DNA of 43,454 bases from Prevotella sp. (GTDB lineage Bacteria; Bacteroidota; Bacteroidia; Bacteroidales; Bacteroidaceae): positions 1-43,454 of the forward strand of contig JAFVGZ010000001.1 in the NCBI GenBank assembly GCA_017478025.1. The letters are read 5' to 3'. Below are positions 9,287-42,406 of the stretch, piece after piece (the first letter of the stretch is position 1; each line of letters opens with the position of its first letter). Below the pieces are notes generated by a model that worked only from the letters and a program-made list of their open reading frames with translations, was not told the origin of the DNA and searched no databases. The translations under genes and the position numbers were made by a program.

Positions 9287-10600
9287 TTATGCCATTTCGA
9301 GTTTTACGTCATCGCGTTTCTTTGCAGTTCGGCTGATGCTTAGTATTACTCCAATGTATATACAGTTTATGATTGACGATGTACCTCCCTTACTGATTAG
9401 TGGTAACGGTTGCCCTGTGACAGGCGCCAACCCTACGGCAACCATCATATTGAACAGTGCCTGGATAACTATCAGCAGCGCCAGACCCATTGCCAGGAAT
9501 GCTGGGAAGGTGTTTGTGCAGCGTCGTGCTATCTGCCCCGTGCGGAAAAGGAGCGAGATATAGAGCAATGCGACAAATGCGGCACCAAGCCATCCTAACT
9601 CTTCAAAGATGATGGCATAGATGAAATCAGAGAACGCCAGCGGCAGGAAGTCGCGTTGTTCAGAGTTTCCGGGACCTTTGCCTATGAACTGGCTCGATGC
9701 TATCGCAATGTTGGCATGTCCTACCTGACTGTTCTTGTCAAGGTCATATTTGTGTGGATCCACGCGCTCACTGTTCAAGAAGTTGTCTATACGCTGCTTC
9801 CACAGGTCCAGACGGTGCAGCACTCCCTTGCGCTTGTTGGTGGTAGCGGGCTCTTTCTTCACCTGTCCGGGGCTGATGGTTTCGGTCAATTGCTTGTCTG
9901 AGGCCTCTACGCTTTCTGTCAGTTGCTTTGCCTCTGCAGCCTTATTGGAGGCTATTTGATTGCTGTCCTGGCCAACGAAGTAAATCGTTGACACTGCCAG
10001 CACCAGCAAAATAGCGACTGCCGAACACAGGTAGCCAATCTGTTTCCACGGCACGCGTCCTATGATCATCATGCAAAAGACCGTTGCACCCATCAGGGCG
10101 GCAGTGGAGAAGTTCTCGGTTACCACAAGCCCCATGAAGAAGAGGGATGTCAGTACGATGTATTTGAATGCCTTGGGATGTGCCCCCTCAGGTGTCTGCA
10201 GCTGGCTCAGAATGTGCGCAGTAAGCAGCACCAGCGTACCTTTGGCTATCTCCGACGGCTGTAACGGTATGCCGAAGAAACTTATCCATCGCGCAGCGTC
10301 GTTGGTCTTGGCTCCGAAAAGCAATACCCACAATAGCAAAATGGGTGCAATGATACACAGAATGGGGGTGCATAGCTTGAAGTATCGGCACGGGATGTTG
10401 AGCACAAAGACCATCACTCCTATGCCGAGACAGAGATATGTGGTGTGCTGAATGGCTGCAATCCAGTAGTTTCCGGATTTGTAGCCCAATGAGGATGATG
10501 AGGAATATACTTCCAGCACGCTAATGATGCATAGCAGGAAGAAGATTATCCAGATAATCCTGTCGCCTTTGAATATGTTTTGTAGTTTCTGTACTTTCAC
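9287..10600 (-). CDS. ftsW: Lipid II polymerase FtsW (SEDS family)
   Basis: SEDS-family peptidoglycan glycosyltransferase of the divisome. About nine to ten hydrophobic segments are visible. Conserved elements include FFGIPLQPSEIAK, FEELGWLGA and the C-terminal GLAPVTGQPLPLISKGGTS. A charged loop of about 90 residues (SNKAAEAKQ...NSQVGHANIAI) lies between membrane segments, as in other Bacteroidota. No ATG precedes the conserved start. The frame is open back to a TTG at 10696, but that codon lies inside the 22-bp array; the GTG at 10598-10600 (VKVQKLQNIFKGDR) fits the family N-terminus better and gives 437 residues. Confidence 0.93.
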   Translation of the reverse strand: MKVQKLQNIFKGDRIIWIIFFLLCIISVLEVYSSSSSLGYKSGNYWIAAIQHTTYLCLGIGVMVFVLNIPCRYFKLCTPILCIIAPILLLWVLLFGAKTNDAARWISFFGIPLQPSEIAKGTLVLLTAHILSQLQTPEGAHPKAFKYIVLTSLFFMGLVVTENFSTAALMGATVFCMMIIGRVPWKQIGYLCSAVAILLVLAVSTIYFVGQDSNQIASNKAAEAKQLTESVEASDKQLTETISPGQVKKEPATTNKRKGVLHRLDLWKQRIDNFLNSERVDPHKYDLDKNSQVGHANIAIASSQFIGKGPGNSEQRDFLPLAFSDFIYAIIFEELGWLGAAFVALLYISLLFRTGQIARRCTNTFPAFLAMGLALLIVIQALFNMMVAVGLAPVTGQPLPLISKGGTSSIINCIYIGVILSISRTAKKRDDVKLEMA

Positions 10601-31857: not shown

Positions 31858-33657
31858 ATGAAACAGAAATTATTAGCTTTATTGGTGATGGCGCTATTTG
31901 TTCCATTAGCGGCCAACGCTTATGATGCCTGTATTGACGGCATCTATTACAACATTGTGATGAAGGCCAAGCAGGCCACGGTGACCTATGGAGAAAATGA
32001 GGAAGGAACTTATTCAGAAAAAGTTGTGATACCTGAAAAGATAAACTACAACGGTATAATCTGTGATGTCGTGGGGATCGGAACAAGGGCATTCACAAAC
32101 TGCAAATTAAGCAATTTAACCCTTCCTCAAAGTTTAACAAAGATTGACCAATATGCATTTGGCAAATACTTCGAAGTAGACTCTCTATGTATAACAGACT
32201 TAACCTCTTGGTGTAATATTGAATTTAATGACGAATACTCCAATCCTATTCGATATGCCTCAGCATTGTTTGTAAACAATGAAAAGGTAACTAATCTTGT
32301 CATTCCTAATGGCATAAAATCTGTCAAGAATTATGCTTTTTATAGTGCCAAGATGCTGACATCTGTTAAACTGTCTGATAGTGTTGAAGCCATTGGTACA
32401 AAGGCATTTTATTTCTGCTCAGGACTTAAGTCTGTTACATGGGGTAAGGGAGTTACAAGTGTTGGCCAAGATGCTTTTAAAGAGTGCAATAATATTGAGC
32501 GTGTCAACATCTCTGATCTGAAAGCATGGCTCTCCGTTGACTTCGGAATATCGAGTGTGTATGGTTCTTTAGGTGAGGGTATTTATCGATTTATTCAAAA
32601 TCCCTTGTATTATGCAGGCCATCTGTATCTAAACGGATCCGAGTTGACAGATGTTGTGGTACCTGATGGAATTGAGACATTATGGGCACATGCATTTGAA
32701 GGTTATACGGCTATCACTTCATTGGTTATTCCTGATGGAGTCAAAGATTTCAAGTCAAGAGGATACGAAGGCAGTACGCTTTCTGATTGCCACAACCTAA
32801 GAAGTGTAAAGATTGGAGCAGGGCTAAAAGAGATGCAAATATTAAATTGTGCCTCTCTCACCTCTTTAGAGGTTGGGGATGGTAAGATAAAAATTGAAAT
32901 CAGCAAATGCCCTCTGCTGAAGGAGAGCGGTATCAAGATATACAACGCCCAAGATATAGAGATTGAACAGTGTAATGCCATTACAGAGTTGACGCTTGCA
33001 AACATTGTTAATGCCACGAACAAATTTAATATTTATTCATGCAGTGGTCTCAAGAAGCTGCAGATTCCTGACGGAGTGTCTTCGGCATATGTAAGAAACT
33101 GCCCAGCATTGACTACTCTCATATTGGGGATGGGATTAAATGGTTTAACGGTTGATGGGTGCAAGGAACTTACCGATGTATATAATCCAATGACTACTCC
33201 GAAACATGTTTCGTTCGGGTTCGGTAATGATTGCCTGATAGAATATGCCACATTACATATTCCTGGAGAATCCATCGATGCTTACAAAGCCACCGAACCT
33301 TGGAGTAAGTTCGGAACAATCATAGCACTGAAAGAGGGCGATCCTGGTTATGCAGACAATCCTAACGTAGGAGGTATCATCACATTTGCCGACTCACGTG
33401 TGGGAAAAATTTGCGTTGACAACTGGGATACTAACGATGACGGAAAACTTTCTGAACAGGAGGCTGCCGCCGTGAAAAGTATTGGGACGGTATTCAAAGA
33501 CAATACACAATTAGTGACATTCTATGAACTTAAATACTTCACAGGTTTGACTGCTATAGACGATGATTCCTTCAACGGTTGTACCAACTTAAAAAACATT
33601 TCAATACCAGAAACGGTAACCTCCTTCGGTAATAGAGCTTTTGAAGACTGTATTTAG
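31858..33657 (+). CDS. BspA-like leucine-rich-repeat surface protein, probably truncated at the C-terminus
   Basis: 599 residues. A signal peptide (about 1-21, KLLALLVMALFVPLAANA) is followed by LRR_5-type repeats with the signatures IPNGIKSVKNYAFYSA, VVPDGIETLWAHAFEG and IPDGVKDF. Near residue 500 is an EF-hand-like segment (VDNWDTNDDGKLSEQEA), then two more repeats, and the protein ends in the middle of a repeat at RAFEDCI. No C-terminal sorting or secretion domain is present. In other BspA-like proteins the EF-hand segment is followed by many more repeats, so the 3' part seems to be lost, just where the mobile element begins. Family members bind host or matrix proteins in some oral bacteria. 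Confidence 0.82.
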   Translation: MKQKLLALLVMALFVPLAANAYDACIDGIYYNIVMKAKQATVTYGENEEGTYSEKVVIPEKINYNGIICDVVGIGTRAFTNCKLSNLTLPQSLTKIDQYAFGKYFEVDSLCITDLTSWCNIEFNDEYSNPIRYASALFVNNEKVTNLVIPNGIKSVKNYAFYSAKMLTSVKLSDSVEAIGTKAFYFCSGLKSVTWGKGVTSVGQDAFKECNNIERVNISDLKAWLSVDFGISSVYGSLGEGIYRFIQNPLYYAGHLYLNGSELTDVVVPDGIETLWAHAFEGYTAITSLVIPDGVKDFKSRGYEGSTLSDCHNLRSVKIGAGLKEMQILNCASLTSLEVGDGKIKIEISKCPLLKESGIKIYNAQDIEIEQCNAITELTLANIVNATNKFNIYSCSGLKKLQIPDGVSSAYVRNCPALTTLILGMGLNGLTVDGCKELTDVYNPMTTPKHVSFGFGNDCLIEYATLHIPGESIDAYKATEPWSKFGTIIALKEGDPGYADNPNVGGIITFADSRVGKICVDNWDTNDDGKLSEQEAAAVKSIGTVFKDNTQLVTFYELKYFTGLTAIDDDSFNGCTNLKNISIPETVTSFGNRAFEDCI

Positions 33658-33823
33658 AGCCTTCTAAACAACCATGAATAATGAAAAACACATAGAGATA
33701 AACCTTTGTATATCAAGTACTTTTGGATTTTAACACTTCAGAACCTGTTTTTGGTTGCTTCGGAAATTCCCGTTAAATTTGCAACGTATTTCTACCGCAG
33801 GGAATTTACGAGGCTTTATTTTT

Positions 33824-33945
33824 GCAACATCGTGGACATAGTTGACTGTGGGTGACAATAGGTTACAAAAGTTGACAGGTTTCCGACTCGCTTTTGAGTA
33901 AAGCAATATCGTGGCGAAAGTTGACAAAGGGTGTCAATAGTTTAC
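33824..33945 (+). repeat. Iteron-like direct repeats upstream of the multi-HTH gene
   Basis: Two 43-bp direct repeats (33824-33866 and 33903-33945) agree at 34 of 43 positions and start 79 bp apart. Each contains GTTGAC, then GGGTG and CAATAG, then TTAC; the second holds the dyad TTGACA-AAGGG-TGTCAA. A third, partial GTTGACA is at 33871. Upstream (33760-33815) the arms AAATTCCC and GGGAATTT form a loose inverted repeat. These are probable binding sites for the element's own HTH protein or integrase arms. Confidence 0.7.
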
Positions 33946-34005
33946 TTGTGATGACTTGCGGAGAGGTACAACAAAAGGAATGTTGAACAGATAAATATCG
34001 CAAGT

Positions 34006-34962
34006 ATGCCAAAAACCAGAAAATGCGCTTATTGTGGCAAGGTTTTCACCACAAACAGCGGAATACAGAAGTACTGCTCTGAGGAATGTGCTGAGCAAGC
34101 GAAGGAAACCAAGAAAAAGAGACAAAGGGATTTCCTTCGAGCTGTCGAGCCAGTGATGGAACTCCAGCAACAGGAGTATCTGACCTTTTCTAAAGCTGCC
34201 ATCCTTTTAGGCTGTACCCGTCAGTATGTCTATAAACTCGTTGAGCAAGGGAAGTTGCCTGCTTCACGACTGAGCAGCCGAATGGCTCTTGTCCGCAGAA
34301 GTGACATAGAGAAGATGTTTGCAGCCAATCCATATAACCGCGTCCTTCCTTGTACGAAGCCCAAGAAAGATTCTTCAAAGAAGAAGGCATCTGTTGGTGA
34401 CAAGAAGCAGAAAGTCCAATCAGCATCATCGTATTCAGATGAAATTCTTGAATACTATTCTGGTGAGGAAGTGAAGCAGATTTATAAGGTCAAACAGTCG
34501 TGGCTTTATGCATCTGCCAAGCGTCATCAGATTCCCATGTGCCGCATCGCAGGACGGAACTATTACAGCAAAAAACACATTGATGCAGTATTTGGCACTA
34601 CCATAGACCTTGATGCCATTGTCGATTGGCTGTCACCACAGGAAGTGGCAGACCGATATGGTATCAACCTTACGGCAGTCCGTTCCTATGCCCATCGTCA
34701 CAAGATTCCAACCAAGCGTGAGTATGGATGCACCTACTATTCTCAGAGTCATTTTGATGAACTCCGTCGTACAGACCTCTTGTCCAACGAGGACTATTAT
34801 ACTGTGGAGCAAGTGCAGCAACTCTATGGACTGACTAAAGCCAACATCTGCCACATCGTCAAGGTCAAGCACATAGAGAAGACAAAAGTAGGAAGGCTTA
34901 ATCTCCTGCTCCGTTCTGATGTGGAGAGAGTGATGGAGGAACGTAAGGCCGCAGGATTCTGA
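34006..34962 (+). CDS. DNA-binding protein with zinc finger and four excisionase-type HTH domains
   Basis: 318 residues. A four-Cys zinc-finger-like motif (C7, C10, C24, C28) is followed by a basic segment and a first MerR/excisionase-type HTH (about 58-105, FSKAAILLGCTRQYVYKLVE). After a Lys/Ser linker come three more HTH units: about 150-196 (GEEVKQIYKVKQSWLYA), 208-255 (PQEVADRYGINLTAVRSYA) and 264-312 (VEQVQQLYGLTKANICHIV). Each has the short wing that ends in a hydrophobic/Arg-Ser-Asp segment. It is the first gene of the element, upstream of the integrase, and the control module of int starts 13 bp past its stop. A role in excision, integration control or transcription is inferred. Confidence 0.85.
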   Translation: MPKTRKCAYCGKVFTTNSGIQKYCSEECAEQAKETKKKRQRDFLRAVEPVMELQQQEYLTFSKAAILLGCTRQYVYKLVEQGKLPASRLSSRMALVRRSDIEKMFAANPYNRVLPCTKPKKDSSKKKASVGDKKQKVQSASSYSDEILEYYSGEEVKQIYKVKQSWLYASAKRHQIPMCRIAGRNYYSKKHIDAVFGTTIDLDAIVDWLSPQEVADRYGINLTAVRSYAHRHKIPTKREYGCTYYSQSHFDELRRTDLLSNEDYYTVEQVQQLYGLTKANICHIVKVKHIEKTKVGRLNLLLRSDVERVMEERKAAGF

Positions 34963-34974
34963 ATTTCTACCATA

Positions 34975-35042
34975 CTGACAGATTATTCGGTGATGATTGA
35001 GAATAATCGGAGTCAGCAACGCATCATTGAGTTCCTTTGCAC
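34975..35042 (+). promoter_or_regulatory. Control module, copy 1 (upstream of the integrase gene)
   Basis: A dyad CTGA..GATTATTC (34975-34988) and GAATAATCGGAGTCAG (35001-35016), then GCATCATTGAGTTCCTTTGC. The last part resembles a -7 box (TTCCTTTG for TAnnTTTG). About 58 of 68 positions match copy 2 at 39177-39244, with identical spacing. Confidence 0.8.
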
Positions 35043-35043
35043 C

Positions 35044-35098
35044 CGTGGAGAAACGCTCCACCATGATTACTAACAATAATATATATATGTATGAGTAA
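35044..35098 (+). promoter_or_regulatory. Integrase mRNA leader: hairpin plus 11-codon leader ORF overlapping the int start
   Basis: Hairpin GTGGAG-AAACG-CTCCAC at 35044-35060, just at the expected transcript start. An ATG at 35063 opens MITNNNIYMYE, ending in a TAA at 35096-35098 that overlaps the int ATG (35091) in another frame. This could couple or limit integrase translation. Confidence 0.5.
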
Positions 35099-36257
35099 CA
35101 TTTGTAAGACCGTGAGCCTCCGCACACGGAAGATCAAAGGCGGAGAACAACTTTCCTTCTATCTCGACTACTATCCTGGCTATCGGGACGAGTCCACCAT
35201 GAAGGTCATGCGTCATGAATCGCTCGGCATCTACATCTATGCCAAGCCGAAGTCACAACGGGAGAAGGACTATAACGACCGTATGCGTGAGAAGGCTGAA
35301 GCCCTCCGCTGCCGTCGCTATGAGAGTATCGTGAATGAAAGGTACGACTTCTTTGATAAAGAAAAGATGAAGGGTGACTTCCTTGCCTACTTCAAGCAGA
35401 AGGCAGACAAGAAGAACTGCAAGTGGCAGCATGTCTATAAGCACTTCGCCAGATTTTGCAATGACAAGTGCCGCTTCGATGAAATCAACGTTGATTTGTG
35501 CAACAAGTTCCGTGAGTATCTTCTAAATGCTCCACAGACCATCCACACAGAGCACAAACTGCACATCAATAGTGTTGCAGGCTATTGGTCCACCTTTCGT
35601 GCCGTACTCCATACCGCCTACAGGGAGCACAAGATTATGGAGAATCCCAACGGCTTCTTGGAACGTATTGACACGATTCCGACAGAAAAAGAGCACTTAT
35701 CCAAGGAGGAACTTATCAGATTGGCCAACACGCCATGTTCGTCTGAGGTCTTGAAAAAGGCTTTCCTCTTCTCTTGCCTGACTGGACTCCGCAAGAGCGA
35801 CATCAAGCAACTGACATGGGACAAGATTCAACCATACGGTGACGGTGGCATGTATGTCACGCTCCGTATGCAGAAGACCAAGGAACTGGTGAACAATCCC
35901 ATCAGTGACGAGGCTTTGGAACTGATTGGTTTCAATGATGACGATGAAAACCACAAACCTACCGATAAGGTGTTCGTTGGCTTCAACGACAGTCTTACTC
36001 AAACTCCGCTGAAGAACTGGCTAAAGGCGGCTGGCATCACCAAGCATATAACCTATCATTGCAGCCGTCACACACTTGGTTCGCTCCAAGTCGAGGCTGG
36101 CACGAGTGTTTATACCGTCCAGCACATCCTTGGACACAAGAATGTTTCCACCACTCAGATCTATGCTGCGATGGCAGACGAGAGTAAGCGTGAGTCCATC
36201 AACCGCATAACATTGAAGCCAGCAAAGAACGTGCAGCTGAAGATTGTCGGCCAATAG
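35091..36257 (+). CDS. int: Tyrosine recombinase / site-specific integrase
   Basis: 388 residues. N-terminal arm-binding region and SAM-like core-binding domain (about 95-190), then the catalytic domain with R234 (TGLRKSDIKQL), H323-x-x-R326 (TYHCSRHTLG), H349 (LGHKNVS) and the nucleophile Y358 (TTQIYA). This is the Bacteroides-type phage integrase found in conjugative and mobilizable transposons. It should insert and excise the element by strand exchange at short att cores. Expression is likely controlled by the dyad module upstream; a strong terminator follows. Confidence 0.95.
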   Translation: MSNICKTVSLRTRKIKGGEQLSFYLDYYPGYRDESTMKVMRHESLGIYIYAKPKSQREKDYNDRMREKAEALRCRRYESIVNERYDFFDKEKMKGDFLAYFKQKADKKNCKWQHVYKHFARFCNDKCRFDEINVDLCNKFREYLLNAPQTIHTEHKLHINSVAGYWSTFRAVLHTAYREHKIMENPNGFLERIDTIPTEKEHLSKEELIRLANTPCSSEVLKKAFLFSCLTGLRKSDIKQLTWDKIQPYGDGGMYVTLRMQKTKELVNNPISDEALELIGFNDDDENHKPTDKVFVGFNDSLTQTPLKNWLKAAGITKHITYHCSRHTLGSLQVEAGTSVYTVQHILGHKNVSTTQIYAAMADESKRESINRITLKPAKNVQLKIVGQ

Positions 36258-36282
36258 TTTTTCTATTCGTATCGTTTTTATG

Positions 36283-36309
36283 GGGAGAGGCATTGCTTCT
36301 CCCTTTTTT
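36283..36309 (+). terminator. Rho-independent terminator of the integrase gene
   Basis: GGGAGA (36283-36288) and TCTCCC (36298-36303) with a 9-nt interior partly paired, followed by six T. It is 26 nt past the int stop. Confidence 0.88.
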
Positions 36310-36449
36310 GTTTCGCAGATTTCCGTTTTGTCCTGACTTACAACCCTTTTAGAGTATGAAAATCGCTGCAAAATCATACTCGTAAGCCAACTAATCTTAA
36401 ATATGGGCTGATTGTTTTGACATTCATCGGCAGTCAGAAATAACCGAAG

Positions 36450-36457
36450 TAACTTTG
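36450..36457 (+). promoter_or_regulatory. Likely promoter of the 36528 gene
   Basis: TAACTTTG fits TAnnTTTG. Upstream, CTGATTG (36408) and CGGCAGTCAG (36428-36437) echo parts of the two control modules with altered spacing, so this may be a degenerate third relative. No -33 TTTG at 20 nt. Confidence 0.5.
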
Positions 36458-36527
36458 CACTCCAGAAGCACCTAAGCATTGGCTGTTTCCGATTAATCGC
36501 GAATAGTAAAACTAAAAGATACAAGAT

Positions 36528-37358
36528 ATGTTTGAAATGAAATCACTGAAGCTTAGAGACCTTTGTCTCTTGTTGGGATGCCCATGTGTGGTGTTCCTTT
36601 CCATTTCCCTGCTTGTCTCCCTGAAAGTTGGAGCCGATTTTCGGCAGGACAGCCTTGCTAAGTGGATGGCATTTATTCTGTGCAACCTGCTGCTATGGCT
36701 ATTATATGTCATGTTCCAGTCGGTACTGCTTGATTTGTTTCCGCAAAAGAGGGACAGACAATCAATAGCAATTCCACAGACAATGAAACAAGTGGTGCAG
36801 ACAGACGTTGTCCCTGAAATGGAAAACACAAACCCTCTGCCACTTATGGCCAATGATAGCACCTCCTTGATTACCCCTAATTCAGAAACTCTGGAAGAAA
36901 GTGTAAGCGTCAAAACCAAGGAAGACTCATACATCCAGCGATGCAAGGCTTATGAGCAGGAGCAAGAACAAAGACGGAAAGAAACTATCGCTGCAATACT
37001 GGATTATGCCAGATATACCATGTCGCCCTATGTCTATGACAGCGAAGAGTTGGAGAACCTTTGTGAGGAAGTAAGGCATTGGTCAGAAGAATATACCTAT
37101 TCTCCAATCCCCATCAGGCTGAAACAGAGACTTACCACCCTCGATCTCCGCCACTTTGTTTGGAATATCGGTGAACGTCTGGGTACCAAGAACGGCTACA
37201 ATGGCTATGCACGTGCAGACTTCATCAAGGCGATGTTTCCCGATGTGATGAAGGACATCGAGCAGGATAGCATCCGTAACTTCAAGTTCCAACCTAACAA
37301 GGGGAGCATCGTGATAGACGAGCCTGATGAAGATAACTACCATTTCCACATAAAATAG
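36528..37358 (+). CDS. Element-encoded membrane protein of unknown function
   Basis: 276 residues. Two hydrophobic segments near the N-terminus (about 12-33 and 45-70), a low-complexity linker (about 80-135), a charged helix (RCKAYEQEQEQRRKETIAA) and a C-terminal domain with conserved-looking motifs HFVWNIGERLG and YARADFIKAMFPDVM. I do not recognise a named family, though proteins with this C-terminal pattern seem common on Bacteroides mobile elements. It has its own promoter and is closed by a strong terminator, so it is a monocistronic unit. Confidence 0.75.
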   Translation: MFEMKSLKLRDLCLLLGCPCVVFLSISLLVSLKVGADFRQDSLAKWMAFILCNLLLWLLYVMFQSVLLDLFPQKRDRQSIAIPQTMKQVVQTDVVPEMENTNPLPLMANDSTSLITPNSETLEESVSVKTKEDSYIQRCKAYEQEQEQRRKETIAAILDYARYTMSPYVYDSEELENLCEEVRHWSEEYTYSPIPIRLKQRLTTLDLRHFVWNIGERLGTKNGYNGYARADFIKAMFPDVMKDIEQDSIRNFKFQPNKGSIVIDEPDEDNYHFHIK

Positions 37359-37373
37359 AGAAGTATGCCTTTT

Positions 37374-37420
37374 AAAAATCAGCGAAAATCAAGAAAAATT
37401 TCCCTTTTTCGCTGATTTTT
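37374..37420 (+). terminator. Strong terminator after the membrane-protein gene
   Basis: Perfect 15-bp stem: AAAAATCAGCGAAAA (37374-37388) with TTTTCGCTGATTTTT (37406-37420). The A/T ends make it potentially bidirectional. It separates the 36528 gene from the ATPase cargo gene. Confidence 0.85.
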
Positions 37421-37454
37421 AGACAAAGAATGGTGGGGTTCAAAATAAAATTTG

Positions 37455-37462
37455 TATTTTTG
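37455..37462 (+). promoter_or_regulatory. Likely promoter of the ATPase cargo gene (-7 box)
   Basis: TATTTTTG fits TAnnTTTG, 23 nt before the ATG; the -33 position reads TGGT. Confidence 0.5.
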
Positions 37463-37485
37463 CAGCACATTAAAGACATATAAAG

Positions 37486-38949
37486 ATGAAGTACCCGAAT
37501 ATTATTGGCAGAGAAGCTGAAATCGCGACACTTGAGCGTTTGTACAAATCTAAGAAGTCTGAGTTTGTGGCCATCTATGGACGCAGACGCATAGGCAAGT
37601 CATATCTGGTCAGTGAAGTGTATGGCAGCAAGATTGTCTTTTCTGCCGTCGGCACATATATGAAGGACGGAGATAAGAATTACGATACTTACCGCAAGTT
37701 GCAGTTGGATCATTTCTACGATTCTCTCTTGTTGTCAGGTCTTGATGCCACTACGTCAGAAAAACCATCCTGTTGGCGTGAAGCCTTTCTGCTTCTACGC
37801 AAACTGCTTGAAAGCATACGCTCTCGTCGGAAGGTTATTCTCATAGACGAACTGCCCTGGCTGGCGGGGCCCAAATCGTCTGAGATGATTTCGGAACTCG
37901 GCTATTTTTGGAACTCATGGGCAGACAGCCAAAGAAATATAGTGCTGGTGGTTTGCGGCTCGGCAACGAGCTGGATGCTTGACAATGTGATCCGTGATTA
38001 CGGAGGACTGCACGGAAGGCTTACCGAGACAATAAAACTTGCCCCCTTTACATTGGCCGAATGCCAGAAGTATTACAGGCGCAACGGATTCCGTCTGTCC
38101 CGATATGAGATGTGCATCTGCTACATGGCTTTGGGAGGTGTTCCCTTTTATCTTGACAAACTGCGCAACAGTCAGACAATTACGGAAAACATTGACCGTA
38201 TTTTCTTTGCTGACGAGAAAATACATCAAGAGTTCGTCGATGTCTATGCCGGACTTTATGCCAGCAAGGAACGCTATGTGGATATCGTAAAAGTCTTGGG
38301 AAGCCAATTCTATGGAATGACCCAGAAAGAAATTGGTGCGGCTATAGATGTCAAAAGCGGAGGAACTCTTACCAAATTGCTTGAAAATCTTATAGAATCT
38401 GATATCATCAGGACTTATCCGCGCTATGGTAAAGAGCGAGTGGAGACTGTCTATCAGCTGATTGATTTCTTCTCTTTGTTCTATTTGCGTTTCATACAGG
38501 GCGGACAGGCAAAGAAAGGAGTATGGAACTCCATTCATGGAACTCCCACTTTCTATACATGGGCAGGAGATACATTTGAACTGCTTTGTATAGAGCATTT
38601 GCCTCGTATTCAGGATTCGCTGCGTATAGCTTCCATCGACAGTAATTATTGCTGGAATGGAAAGAGTCCTGACGGAAGAGGTGCTCAGATAGACTTACTG
38701 CTGGAAAGCAAAGCTGACAGGACAGACTATCTGTGTGAAATGAAATTCACTGGAACCAAATATGCCATAACGAAGACCGATGAAGAGAATTTCCTGAATA
38801 AAATAGAAGCCTTTGTTGCAAGTAAGATGCACAACAAGACGCATAGCATCCAACTGGTTATGGTTACGACGATGGGAATAGCAAGAGGCGAACATGCCAG
38901 TATCGTTAACCAATCAATCACATTGGATGACCTGTTTATGGAACGTTGA
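37486..38949 (+). CDS. AAA+ ATPase with C-terminal PD-(D/E)XK nuclease-like domain (ATPase_2/DUF234 type)
   Basis: 487 residues. Walker A GRRRIGKSY (32-40), Walker B VILIDELPWL (D121, E122), a sensor-like VVCGSATSWM, the helical lid LAPFTLAECQKYY, then a winged-helix segment (MTQKEIGAAIDV) and a C-terminal domain with D403 (RGAQIDLLL) and E418-x-K420 (LCEMKFT), the spacing of a PD-(D/E)XK core. This is the archaeal-type ATPase family frequent in Bacteroidota; the function is unknown and suggestions of defence or toxin roles are untested. It is enclosed by a terminator on each side and has its own promoter, so it looks like independent cargo inserted between the int and mob halves. Confidence 0.88.
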   Translation: MKYPNIIGREAEIATLERLYKSKKSEFVAIYGRRRIGKSYLVSEVYGSKIVFSAVGTYMKDGDKNYDTYRKLQLDHFYDSLLLSGLDATTSEKPSCWREAFLLLRKLLESIRSRRKVILIDELPWLAGPKSSEMISELGYFWNSWADSQRNIVLVVCGSATSWMLDNVIRDYGGLHGRLTETIKLAPFTLAECQKYYRRNGFRLSRYEMCICYMALGGVPFYLDKLRNSQTITENIDRIFFADEKIHQEFVDVYAGLYASKERYVDIVKVLGSQFYGMTQKEIGAAIDVKSGGTLTKLLENLIESDIIRTYPRYGKERVETVYQLIDFFSLFYLRFIQGGQAKKGVWNSIHGTPTFYTWAGDTFELLCIEHLPRIQDSLRIASIDSNYCWNGKSPDGRGAQIDLLLESKADRTDYLCEMKFTGTKYAITKTDEENFLNKIEAFVASKMHNKTHSIQLVMVTTMGIARGEHASIVNQSITLDDLFMER

Positions 38950-39035
38950 TTCATCTTTACCAGTATTCCGACTAAATGGTATTTCCCAAATCGGAATGCT
39001 AATTCTCTTTTAATAATAAGATTCTTATACCCCTT

Positions 39036-39087
39036 AAAGGTGGGCGAAAGTTGATGTTTAGGCATCGGTTTTCGCCCACCTTTTTTT
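39036..39087 (+). terminator. Rho-independent terminator of the ATPase gene
   Basis: AAAGGTGGGCGAAA and TTTTCGCCCACCTTT arms with a T-rich tail (39081-39087), 86 nt past the stop. Confidence 0.9.
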
Positions 39088-39176
39088 ATTGTGTCTGTAC
39101 TGTAAAGGCAACTCTATACCTTCTTTTTCCCTTTATTCAAACTTGAAACCACTTGTTTTTCATTAAAATACCCATG

Positions 39177-39244
39177 CTGATTGATTATTCATTGCTTATC
39201 GTGAATAATCGGAGTCAGCATGGCATCATTGAGTTCCTTTGCAG
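39177..39244 (+). promoter_or_regulatory. Control module, copy 2 (upstream of the excisionase/mobilization genes)
   Basis: CTGATTGATTATTC (39177-39190) and GAATAATCGGAGTCAG (39203-39218), then GCATCATTGAGTTCCTTTGC ending at 39242. Spacing is the same as in copy 1 (34975-35042). A hairpin GGTCT-N8-AGACC follows at 39247-39264, at the same offset as the hairpin after copy 1. Confidence 0.8.
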
Positions 39245-39273
39245 CCGGTCTCAAACCAAAGACCGTGAACATA

Positions 39274-39681
39274 ATGGAAAATAAAGAATTGACTTTCAAC
39301 GACCTTCCACAGGTCGTCGCCCAGCTTCGGGATGAGGTGATGGGCATGAGAACGCTGCTAATCAAGCAGCAGGAAGAGAACCGTAAACAACAGGTACGCG
39401 AGAACCGTCACAAGCCCATGACGGTGGAGGAGGCAGCTGAGTACACGCGCATCCCTTTGGGAACGCTGTACATGAAACTCGGTGATGGGACGATACCAGC
39501 CACAAAGCCAGGCAAACGCTATGTCCTCTATCAGGATGAGCTTGACAAGTGGCTGGAGGCGAATCGCAAGAATCCCATTCCTTTGACGGATGAGGAGCAG
39601 AACTCAGCCATCCTTGCCTCGCACAAGAGAAAGCCAGACAAGCATGACTGGCAGTCAGAAGCAGACATCAATCCGACGTAA
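39274..39681 (+). CDS. Excisionase-like helix-turn-helix protein
   Basis: 135 residues from the ATG at 39274 (MENKELTFNDLPQVVAQL). An earlier in-frame ATG at 39220 lies inside the control module and is rejected. A coiled-coil-like N-terminal part (about 10-42) precedes an HTH_17 / excisionase-type domain at about 50-95 (MTVEEAAEYTRIPLGTLYM, then RYVLYQDELDKWLE). Such proteins act as recombination directionality factors or as transcription factors in Bacteroides elements. It is the first gene of the mobilization half. Confidence 0.85.
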   Translation: MENKELTFNDLPQVVAQLRDEVMGMRTLLIKQQEENRKQQVRENRHKPMTVEEAAEYTRIPLGTLYMKLGDGTIPATKPGKRYVLYQDELDKWLEANRKNPIPLTDEEQNSAILASHKRKPDKHDWQSEADINPT

Positions 39682-39778: not shown

Positions 39779-40615
39779 ATGAAATACAGGAATATCAAAT
39801 ACGGAATCCTGCTGACCAAGCAGCAGCTTGACTTCCTCAAAGATGACAACCAAGGTTTTCACCGCATGAAAGCCCTTGATACCATTCTCTCTTTGGCGGC
39901 AATAGAGCCTTTCCATTACGAGAAGAAGAACTTTTCTGCTGACCTCAGTATCGGTCAGTTTGCCATATCGAAAGTAGAACTTGCCGAACTATGGCACTGT
40001 GACCGCAAGACTGCACAGAAAATGATCGACCTCTTCAATGAGGTGGGGATTCTCACATCTATTGCCAATAACCGCACGACTATCCACACCATTCATTGTT
40101 TGGCATTCTGGTTTGTGGATGGGCGGGATGCTCCCATCAAGAATCCGAATTATCATCGGAATACAGCCACTCTCAAATTGGCTGACCAAGGTAATGCCAA
40201 CCCGACAGATTCTAATGATAATGGCAACATCCATCCTCTATCGTTAACCTCTTCTACTCCCGTTTCATCTGTGGCTGATGCCAACAACGATGAAAGGGAA
40301 GAGAATAAACCATCTCCATGCGAAGAGGATGGACAGCTGCCAGATGATTACTTGAAGCAACTTGATGAACACTATGCCAACCTGTTGCCAGAAACCGATG
40401 AGCCATATCGCACATCAAATGATGTCGCATTAGGCGACACTCCTCCCATACCTACCAATCCAAAGGGCATCCCTGATGATGATGGCTCGACAAATCAACT
40501 TGTCTCGTCAATCCCTAATCCAGCAGCTGGGGATGTAACCGACACCATCAAAAGCCCCCAAAATGGCAGAGACAAACAAGAGGTTAATGCCACGGACAAG
40601 CCCGAAGAAGTGTGA
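39779..40615 (+). CDS. Element-encoded protein with winged-helix-like N-terminus, function unknown
   Basis: 278 residues from the ATG at 39779 (MKYRNIKYGILLTKQQLDFL); the upstream extension to 39734 covers the hairpin and is not used. The first 120 residues look like a DNA-binding, replication-protein-like winged helix (SIGQFAISKVELAELWHCDRK-type segment, then MIDLFNEVGILTSIANNRTT). The rest (about 125-278) is acidic and low complexity (Asn, Asp, Pro, Ser) and probably disordered. It may help initiate transfer or replication; I do not recognise a named family. Confidence 0.72.
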   Translation: MKYRNIKYGILLTKQQLDFLKDDNQGFHRMKALDTILSLAAIEPFHYEKKNFSADLSIGQFAISKVELAELWHCDRKTAQKMIDLFNEVGILTSIANNRTTIHTIHCLAFWFVDGRDAPIKNPNYHRNTATLKLADQGNANPTDSNDNGNIHPLSLTSSTPVSSVADANNDEREENKPSPCEEDGQLPDDYLKQLDEHYANLLPETDEPYRTSNDVALGDTPPIPTNPKGIPDDDGSTNQLVSSIPNPAAGDVTDTIKSPQNGRDKQEVNATDKPEEV

Positions 40616-40791: not shown

Positions 40792-41169
40792 ATGATTAAG
40801 ACAAAATCGAAGACCTCAGAAAAGAGGCAGAACAAAGGACACCATATCGATGTCCGCTTCACGGAAGAAGAATACAACCAGATTATCACCAACGCCAACA
40901 AGTGCGGAATGCACAAGAGCATCTATGTCCATGATGCTGTCCTTGGGCACCAACCAAAGCTTTTGATGACCGTGGAACAGGAGGAAGCGCTGAAAAGTCT
41001 TTCCGCCGCAAGGTCTGAACTTGTCGGCATACGCAATGCCCTTCACGGACTGCCGCAGGAGGTGAGGAAGCGTTACTTCAGGAACGAGCGAATCATGACG
41101 GCATGGATAGAGGGCGTGAACTACCTCATCCAGCACTGGGACACCATCAAGGAAAAGTTTGGAGGATAG
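40792..41169 (+). CDS. mobC: MobC-like relaxosome accessory protein
   Basis: 125 residues. A basic N-terminus is followed by a ribbon-helix-helix-like segment (HHIDVRFTEEEYNQIITNAN) and a helical part with SARSELVGIRNALHGL, the pattern of MobC/BmgA-type proteins that bind oriT and help the relaxase. The gene lies immediately upstream of the relaxase gene (4-nt gap), with the sequence GGAGG at the junction. Confidence 0.82.
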   Translation: MIKTKSKTSEKRQNKGHHIDVRFTEEEYNQIITNANKCGMHKSIYVHDAVLGHQPKLLMTVEQEEALKSLSAARSELVGIRNALHGLPQEVRKRYFRNERIMTAWIEGVNYLIQHWDTIKEKFGG

Positions 41170-41173
41170 GATT

Positions 41174-42406
41174 ATGATAGCAACTGCAAGACCCATAGCG
41201 CATGGTCAGGCCATGACCAACTATGCCACGAAAGACTTCCGTGCCGACATCGTGAAGGTGAACCTCCTGACAGAGGATCTGCCCCCGATGGGTATGTGGG
41301 ACGAGATGGTGCTCCACATGAACCGCTTCAGGCAGAAGTTCGCACGGAAGCCCATTGACAAGACGTCCATACGCATAGAGGTTTCCCCATCCATGAACGA
41401 GAGTGACGGATGGGAACTCGATGACTGGCGACATTTCACAGAGGAGTTTGTGGATGAACTTGACCAGGTGACCAAAACACCAGATGACAAGCACAAAAAT
41501 CTTGTCCCGACGAACATTAAGAACTCGCAGTACTTCGCAGCTCTCCACTATGATGCCAAATCAGAGATTCCTCACCTGCATCTGGTGGTGAACCGCATCG
41601 ACAAGGATGGCAATATCAATGACTGTCACTTCATCGGCGAGCGGGCTGTGGCAGCTGCCCATGCCATCAATCTGCGGCACGGCTGGAAAGATCCGATGGA
41701 GATACGGGATGAGCACCTCCAACAGATAACCGACGACTGTATGGAAATACTCAAATCTCTGCCACGTTTCGACTGGACTGATTACGAAGCCCTGCTGACC
41801 AGAAGAGGCTATAAGGTCAAATTGCAACGTGACAAGGAGAATGTGGTTAGAGGCTATTCCATCAAGAAGGGCAATACCTCTTATAAGTCATCCGAACTGG
41901 GCATAGGACGCAACCTGATGCCGACTAAGATAGGAGATACATGGCAGAAACTGCATCCTGTTCAGAAGCCGATGGCTGTACAAGCACCAAAGCCATTGGA
42001 CAGCAAGAAGCCAGTCACGGATAGACCGTCAACGGCACAGGCATTATCCTCACAAGCCAAACCGATTGCCACATTCAACGACTATCGTCAGGTATTCCTC
42101 ATCGATGGCAAGCAGGTACAGCTGAGCATCCCCGAAAGAATTTACAAGGAGCTTGACAGAAACATCGAGGTTCCCGAAAACAGCAATGCCACGCATGGGG
42201 ACATTCTGAAAGTCGCCATGCTGTTGTTCCTGAACTACGTCGATGCAGCTACTGCCATTTCCGAGTCTTATGGTGGCGGTGGCGATGCTGGCACAGGCTG
42301 GGGAAAAGACAAGGACGAGGATGAATTGGAAAGGGCCAGACGCTGTGCCAAAATGGCAAAATGGCTCTGCAAGCCGATTGTCAGAAGCAAGAAGTATGGA
42401 AGATAG
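41174..42406 (+). CDS. mobA: Relaxase / mobilization nuclease (MOBP-like)
   Basis: 410 residues from the ATG at 41174, preceded by GGAGG; an alternative TTG at 41159 lies within mobC. The relaxase domain shows a candidate catalytic Tyr (Y17 in AMTNYATKDF) and the metal motif H125 ... H134-x-H136 with NR (LHYDAKSEIPHLHLVVNRI). The C-terminal part (about 260-410) is Pro/Lys-rich, then helical, with a Gly-rich stretch. It should nick oriT and lead the strand to a recipient with a helper secretion system. Confidence 0.92.
   Translation: MIATARPIAHGQAMTNYATKDFRADIVKVNLLTEDLPPMGMWDEMVLHMNRFRQKFARKPIDKTSIRIEVSPSMNESDGWELDDWRHFTEEFVDELDQVTKTPDDKHKNLVPTNIKNSQYFAALHYDAKSEIPHLHLVVNRIDKDGNINDCHFIGERAVAAAHAINLRHGWKDPMEIRDEHLQQITDDCMEILKSLPRFDWTDYEALLTRRGYKVKLQRDKENVVRGYSIKKGNTSYKSSELGIGRNLMPTKIGDTWQKLHPVQKPMAVQAPKPLDSKKPVTDRPSTAQALSSQAKPIATFNDYRQVFLIDGKQVQLSIPERIYKELDRNIEVPENSNATHGDILKVAMLLFLNYVDAATAISESYGGGGDAGTGWGKDKDEDELERARRCAKMAKWLCKPIVRSKKYGR

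Follow-up and report, generated by a model that had tools for sequence, protein, structure and literature searches.

A putative operator-promoter shared by the integrase and excisionase genes of a Tn4555-type mobile element in Prevotella

A 43,454-nt stretch of Prevotella sp. DNA (GenBank assembly GCA_017478025.1, contig JAFVGZ010000001.1, positions 1 to 43,454; the window, whose positions serve for all coordinates below) carries, to judge by its gene content, an integrative and mobilizable element of the Tn4555 type. The element contains the same module twice, once before int (35091..36257, + strand), which matches the tyrosine integrase family, and once before xis (39274..39681, +), which encodes an excisionase-family protein with one HTH_17 domain (family and profile matches). 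We consider it probable that both modules are instances of a single operator-promoter, specific to the element, through which int and xis are set together, and the comparisons below suggest that one element-made protein sets both genes in a family of gut and rumen mobile elements.

Module 1 (34970..35045) and module 2 (39172..39247), both on the + strand, are identical at 64 of 76 positions. The original prediction had drawn a narrower unit (34975-35042 and 39177-39244) with about 58 of 68 matches and no gaps; the recount gives 57 of 68, gap-free, and the duplication is real. The dyad arms GATTATTC/GAATAATC, the 12-nt centre between them and the identical 19-nt end ATCATTGAGTTCCTTTGCA (35023-35041 and 39225-39243) are also present in both copies as claimed. 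The flanks are unrelated, with 5, 7, 9 and 10 of 20 positions identical to each other in the four flanking 20-mers. A search of the same genome with the 76-nt query returned the two copies (E 6e-34 and 1e-17) and five other matches, each of 14-22 nt.

The dyad is real, but our reading of the sequences makes it one part of a larger design, in which direct half-sites lie 11 bp apart at fixed positions before a TTCCTTTGC promoter core. In module 1 (34981..35008, +) the half-sites are GATTAT at 34981, GATGAT 11 bp on at 34992 and an inverted ATAATC at 35003; in module 2 (39183..39210, +) they are GATTAT at 39183, GCTTAT at 39194 and an inverted ATAATC at 39205. Counted from the first T of the TTTG in the core, the direct half-sites stand at -55 and -44 and the inverted one at -33. 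The dyad centre differs between the copies, as had been noted, but it is not free to diverge because the middle half-site sits there, 11 bp after the first arm. In the window's family this half-site is exactly GATTAT in 23 of 31 modules and agrees at five or more of six letters in 29, the window's own being the two variants just given.

The search of other Bacteroidota elements that the original prediction had proposed did find the module elsewhere. A 67-nt query matched 29 of 398 genomes of the genus at E<=0.01, 22 of them at E 2e-11 or better and seven by partial matches of 22-33 nt only. An iterated profile built on 26 fetched stretches and the window gave 32 hits, of which one (L067, E 3e-7) was dropped as apparently coding sequence. 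The 31 remaining copies, all in the closest lineages and counting the window's own, include 15 before int and 15 before xis; on the xis side the gene is cut at or near a contig end in L051 and L061 and shortened in L054 and L057. The copy in L056 has an xis-type leader with no recognisable xis behind it. An exact pattern scan of genome contigs yielded 44 stretches, 11 with two copies, in records titled Prevotella, Prevotellaceae, Bacteroidaceae, Bacteroidales and, once, uncultured bacterium. No module was found in viral contigs by exact pattern scan; there Int matched at one locus (L146) and TnpA gave two short matches. The L054 module (9990-10065 of its stretch, in the single-contig genome G045) stands alone with its shortened xis: none of the window's other element proteins was found within the 19.9 kb fetched, and the search for TnpA relatives, which matched 97 genomes of the genus, did not return G045. 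This module may be a remnant or a reused promoter.

Beyond the closest lineages the sequence of the operator changes, while the match between its two copies persists. Relatives of Int occur in 53 of 393 genomes of the order (E<=1e-60) and relatives of TnpA, the protein encoded upstream of int, in those 97 of 398 genomes of the genus (E<=1e-25), some as fragments or distant matches. The regions compared came from 35 of the 63 Int matches listed, 40 of the 123 TnpA matches listed and seven plasmid regions; both upstream regions were obtainable in 65 elements, 59 of them distinct, although the elements are not independent. In 48 of the 59 the int and xis upstream regions align better than all 300 shuffles. 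Across 17 lineage representatives, with the promoter-proximal 14 nt removed, the own-pair scores sum to 670 against a permutation mean of 320 and maximum of 534, and none of 200,000 permutations reaches the observed sum. Tn4555-type records have their own matched pair before int and xis, different in sequence from the window's. The operator varies by lineage and the pair stays matched. One element (L237) appears by eye to have an int operator like that of lineage L and an xis operator like that of lineage L2, and is possibly a mixed pair.

To test the 11-bp phase, exact 5-mer repeats were counted in the 34 operators of the 17 lineages, within a 72-nt stretch that stops 18 nt short of the core. 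A 5-mer is repeated at lag 11 in 24 of the 34 (int 10/17, xis 14/17), where dinucleotide shuffles lead one to expect 1.9, and at lag 22 in 14, where 1.6 are expected; 0 of 1000 shuffles reached the observed count at either lag. Lags 10 (7/34) and 18 (6/34) are also elevated, more weakly. By lineage, lag 11 appears in at least one operator in 15 of 17 and in both operators in nine. The repeats mostly start near -65 and -54, several lineages have half-sites near -65, -54 and -43, and further conserved motifs follow downstream of the array, TCA near -22 and ATCATT near -11. Among the controls, the region upstream of tnpC (2/17 against 2.2 expected from mononucleotide shuffles, as used for all controls within the element), the inside of int (0/17 against 0.7) and host TAnnTTTG sites (1/24) show no such excess. 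The family thus has direct repeats one helical turn apart, as in arrays of the BldC/Xis type.

That the module combines an operator with a promoter core, as originally proposed, is well supported by its conservation across the family. The core, preceded by ATCATT, is the same in both copies (35023..35041 and 39225..39243, both +), with the -7-like TTCCTTTG at 35032-35039 and 39234-39241, and its motifs keep a fixed distance in the 34 operators. The commonest form, TTCCTTTGC, occurs in 16 of 34 operators and TTTG in 33, a conservation that is partly by construction because TTTG served as the anchor of the alignment. The promoters of the Bacteroides sigma factor sigma-ABfr have the published consensus -7 TAnnTTTG and -33 TTTG (PMC7366714). 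The TTCCTTTG of the module is -7-like, with one mismatch to that element (again with the anchoring TTTG included). TTTG is absent at -33: when the four most frequent 4-mers of the 34 operators are listed for each offset between -28 and -19, it appears in none of the lists, and its place is mostly taken by TCAC, TCAG or CCAC.

Just past the core, the int transcript has a predicted 6-bp leader hairpin, GTGGAG-AAACG-CTCCAC (35045..35061, +), which begins about where a start 7 nt past the -7 box would fall. Its stem is conserved in relatives: of the 47 distinct int leaders listed (of 51), 29 have a full 6-bp stem that starts 8-9 nt past the first T of TTTG when the best of 24 start-loop combinations is taken for each leader, a search in which leaders with no hairpin usually score 2-3 of 6. 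The stems show paired changes between groups (GTGAGG/CCTCAC, GTGAAG/CTTCAC, GCTATG/CATAGC). Before xis we read a hairpin CGGTCT...AGACCG (39246..39265, +), and similar ones in several lineages. The mean z over 17 lineages is -1.1 for int and -2.0 for xis leaders, and no hairpin precedes int in lineages D, E, F, G and I. The automatic open-reading-frame call starts xis at ATG 39220, inside module 2; the homologue profile favours ATG 39274.

A relative of the module had also been reported before the gene at 36528, our tnpC, and this is confirmed and conserved in the elements examined. The putative promoter (36439..36459, +) has one operator half abutting TAACTTTGCA; AATAATCGGAG lies immediately 5' of TAACTTTGC in 11 of 13 elements, and the other two (the window and L012) carry AATAACCGAAG. 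The proposal that the modules switch integration and transfer genes at once fared less well. It is supported as far as a putative promoter before xis; mobC starts 1.1 kb downstream of the xis end with no conserved module-like piece before it. The 10-bp piece noted there does occur in the window and in L012 but is missing in four of six elements, and we rejected it as part of the module system.

Candidates for the protein that reads the array are the element's own winged helix-turn-helix (wHTH) proteins of the Xis/BldC fold, and the evidence points to either TnpA or Xis. Int was rejected as the reader on lineage J, whose Int is 92-93% (L239) or 86-92% (L146) identical to that of lineages A and A2, while its operators are unrelated to theirs yet match each other; because lineage J keeps a similar Int with a different matched pair, the operator does not follow Int. 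Its TnpA is 54-55% and its Xis 53-68% identical to those of A/A2, and from these identities the lineage looks like a mosaic. Over 136 non-independent lineage pairs, operator similarity correlates with Xis at 0.54, TnpA at 0.50, Int at 0.43 and TnpC at 0.33; with either TnpA or Xis taken into account, Int contributes nothing further.

TnpA (34006..34962, +) has a Cys4 N-terminus and four predicted winged-helix domains of the HTH_17/Xis-like type. Pfam marks HTH_17 in three stretches of the window protein, and every one of the 53 members scanned carries HTH_17. The model places a long helix after the Cys4 N-terminus and wHTH units at about 58-108, 150-197, 208-255 and 264-316, but with a pLDDT of 78.7 and a pTM of 0.33 the arrangement of the domains is not trustworthy. 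The units match Pukovnik Xis and BldC structurally (mainly units 1 and 4 were tested); nothing is excluded for families that do not appear in the VIA-align list. The top Foldseek matches of the whole model (UFL1 and others, root-mean-square deviation about 18 A) were judged meaningless, and single-domain matches were used. Xis is a single wHTH unit (model pLDDT 73.8, pTM 0.38), and its profile gives an unrelated Pumilio protein as best sequence match in the PDB (E 0.0013) and RdfS second (E 0.19). According to a review, Tn4555 inserts essentially at random once tnpA is deleted, and its excision is optimal only with a further protein of the element (PMC5704250).

We suggest that TnpA, with four domains in one chain, or Xis, with one domain and acting as an oligomer, would be laid along the array and set transcription of int and xis jointly, so that integrase and directionality factor would be made in step. 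Each lineage would have its own operator, matched at both genes, because the reader of the array evolves. Activation seems more likely than repression, because the array sits at an activator position and the -33 box is missing; at tnpC of the window lineage, a single half-site abuts a better promoter, as a repressor site would. A more specific version is tentative and somewhat less probable than its negation: TnpA, known from Tn4555 as the protein that directs insertion, would be a built-in BldC-like filament whose chained wHTH domains read three or four half-sites spaced one per turn. If it is true, one protein would both choose the landing site and act as the switch for int and xis, and each lineage would have rewritten the recognition code of this protein together with both operators.

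Several results weigh against shared control or blur its reader. The 17 representatives and their TTTG core anchors were picked by eye, and in the matrix of lineages only 12 of 17 rows and 10 of 17 columns have their maximum at the own pair. There is no clear int/xis match in 11 of the 59 elements, eight of them distant relatives (L160, L164, L171, in which the xis call is doubtful, L173, L175, L176, L178 and L179) and three close ones (L158, L220 and L237); some distant relatives have no separate int leader because int starts only 7-14 nt after tnpA. Ten of the 34 operators have no exact 5-mer repeat at lag 11, and the inside of xis shows 3/17 against 0.8 expected. Partial correlation does not separate the two candidate readers: over the same non-independent pairs it is 0.04 for TnpA with Xis controlled for and 0.22 for Xis with TnpA controlled for. 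The left-end region, a possible directionality-factor site, showed no copies of the lineage operators (diagonal 280 against a permutation mean of 279.9, 14 lineages), so that support for Xis was sought there in vain.

Other explanations have to be weighed against a shared operator-promoter. A helper element or the host might supply the reader, for instance an activator like RteC, which comes from a conjugative transposon. We think this improbable, as the operator changes among element lineages within one genus and follows the element-borne TnpA and Xis. It is less probable again that the modules are arm or core sites of the integrase or serve its autoregulation. A dyad next to int whose centre varies does resemble a recombinase site, and Int correlates with the operator at 0.43; the left end of the element, however, is at 33649, 1.3 kb before module 1, with GTATTTAGAG at 14 of 14 junctions, and lineage J combines a closely similar Int with quite different modules and, by eye, with TTGAC-like left-end repeats that resemble those of lineage A. 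The modules moreover run up to a promoter core, and a gene follows in 30 of 31 copies. Reading them as attachment sites was rejected, as they are internal to the element judged by that left end.

Gene conversion could likewise keep two copies alike within an element, and recombination might have homogenised them with no shared function. That is a slim prospect: the match stops soon past the promoter core, the leaders differ, the flanks agree at just 5-10 of 20 positions, and the half-sites hold their 11-bp phase and position even where the letters differ. Slimmest of all is the chance that the dyad is an RNA element in the leader. Its arms could pair as RNA and genuine leader hairpins lie just downstream, but the dyad is upstream of the promoter core, and the general feature across lineages is direct, not inverted, half-sites.

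The element that carries the modules has the order tnpA-int-tnpC-xis with related proteins, the mobilization genes following xis, and a relaxase of its own, as Tn4555-like elements do. Some plasmid-borne relatives with this gene order come from records whose annotation names Tn4555 TnpA, Tn4555 TnpC and an excisionase, and we therefore assign the element to the Tn4555 type; a plasmid megablast with the whole region gave no match. The TnpC-like protein (36528..37358, +) falls in no Pfam family but has the position of Tn4555 tnpC, was grouped with it for the profile and is 37% identical to the TnpC of L114. Beyond xis lie an orphan protein (39779-40615) and the MobC/MbpA-like and MbpB-like relaxase genes (40792..42406, +; family matches). 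The relaxase matches PF03432 at E 6.5e-7 (30.1 bits, cut-off 24.6) and the MbpB model at E 9e-23, but there with 81 bits against a cut-off of 400.

Comparison of junctions puts the left end, TGTATTTAGAG, at 33649 inside a BspA-like leucine-rich repeat (LRR) gene. GTATTTAGAG is common to all 14 junctions (the window, L012, L044-L051, L059 and L061-L063), 13 have the longer TGTATTTAGAG, and 11 lie next to a BspA-like LRR gene that was identified with the LRR protein of the window. LRR repeats seem to serve this family as landing sites. The stop codon that closes the interrupted gene in frame in the window (TAG 33655-33657) comes from the element, and some lineage J elements also lie at LRR genes by eye. 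Upstream of tnpA (about 33650-34005), 10 of 17 lineages have a second array, made of TTGAC-like repeats at 10-bp spacing, with lag 20 in six of 17; by eye its sequence is common to most lineages, unlike the operators, and it may consist of integrase arm sites. The ATPase gene between tnpC and module 2 (37486-38949) behaves as optional cargo, in the same place in L012, L050, L051 and partly in L056 and L058 and absent between int and xis in L045, L048, L049 and L060.

Tn4555 itself, an integrative and mobilizable element of Bacteroides, shares the gene order and the possession of matched modules, and its Int is 65-66% identical. Its operator sequence is different, its xis is followed by genes for an AAA ATPase and a DUF6371 protein and by another mobilization gene, and it has cfxA as cargo; the window has its ATPase insert before module 2. 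The 10,057-bp circular record CP103138.1 (L114) holds solely a Tn4555-type gene set with cfxA and appears to be an excised circle that was submitted as a plasmid. Our literature search found no description of a paired or phased operator at int and xis of this type, a weak negative as the primary Tn4555 literature was incompletely covered. A close parallel is RdfS of ICEMlSym-R7A, a directionality factor of the HTH_17 kind. It binds close to intS and at the promoter of rdfS, and through its sites at attP and at its own promoter it coordinates the expression of the two genes; the report gives no consensus motif for RdfS (PMC11963761), whereas the phased array is plain here and would be read by Xis or TnpA. 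BldC of Streptomyces binds direct repeats head to tail (PMC5859096), such MerR/Xis-like wHTH proteins lying one per DNA turn on smeA-sffA (PMC11963761). TnpA differs from BldC, a single protein of 68 residues, in its predicted chain of four such domains behind a Cys4 N-terminus.

Elements of this family spread genes, including the beta-lactamase on Tn4555, among gut Bacteroidales, and whether an element remains in place or leaves depends on the balance of int and xis. A shared phased operator, recognisable in the sequence itself, would offer a direct handle on that choice and a means of finding such elements, and the roughly 17 naturally varied protein-operator pairs may serve the study of DNA recognition by Xis-like domains.

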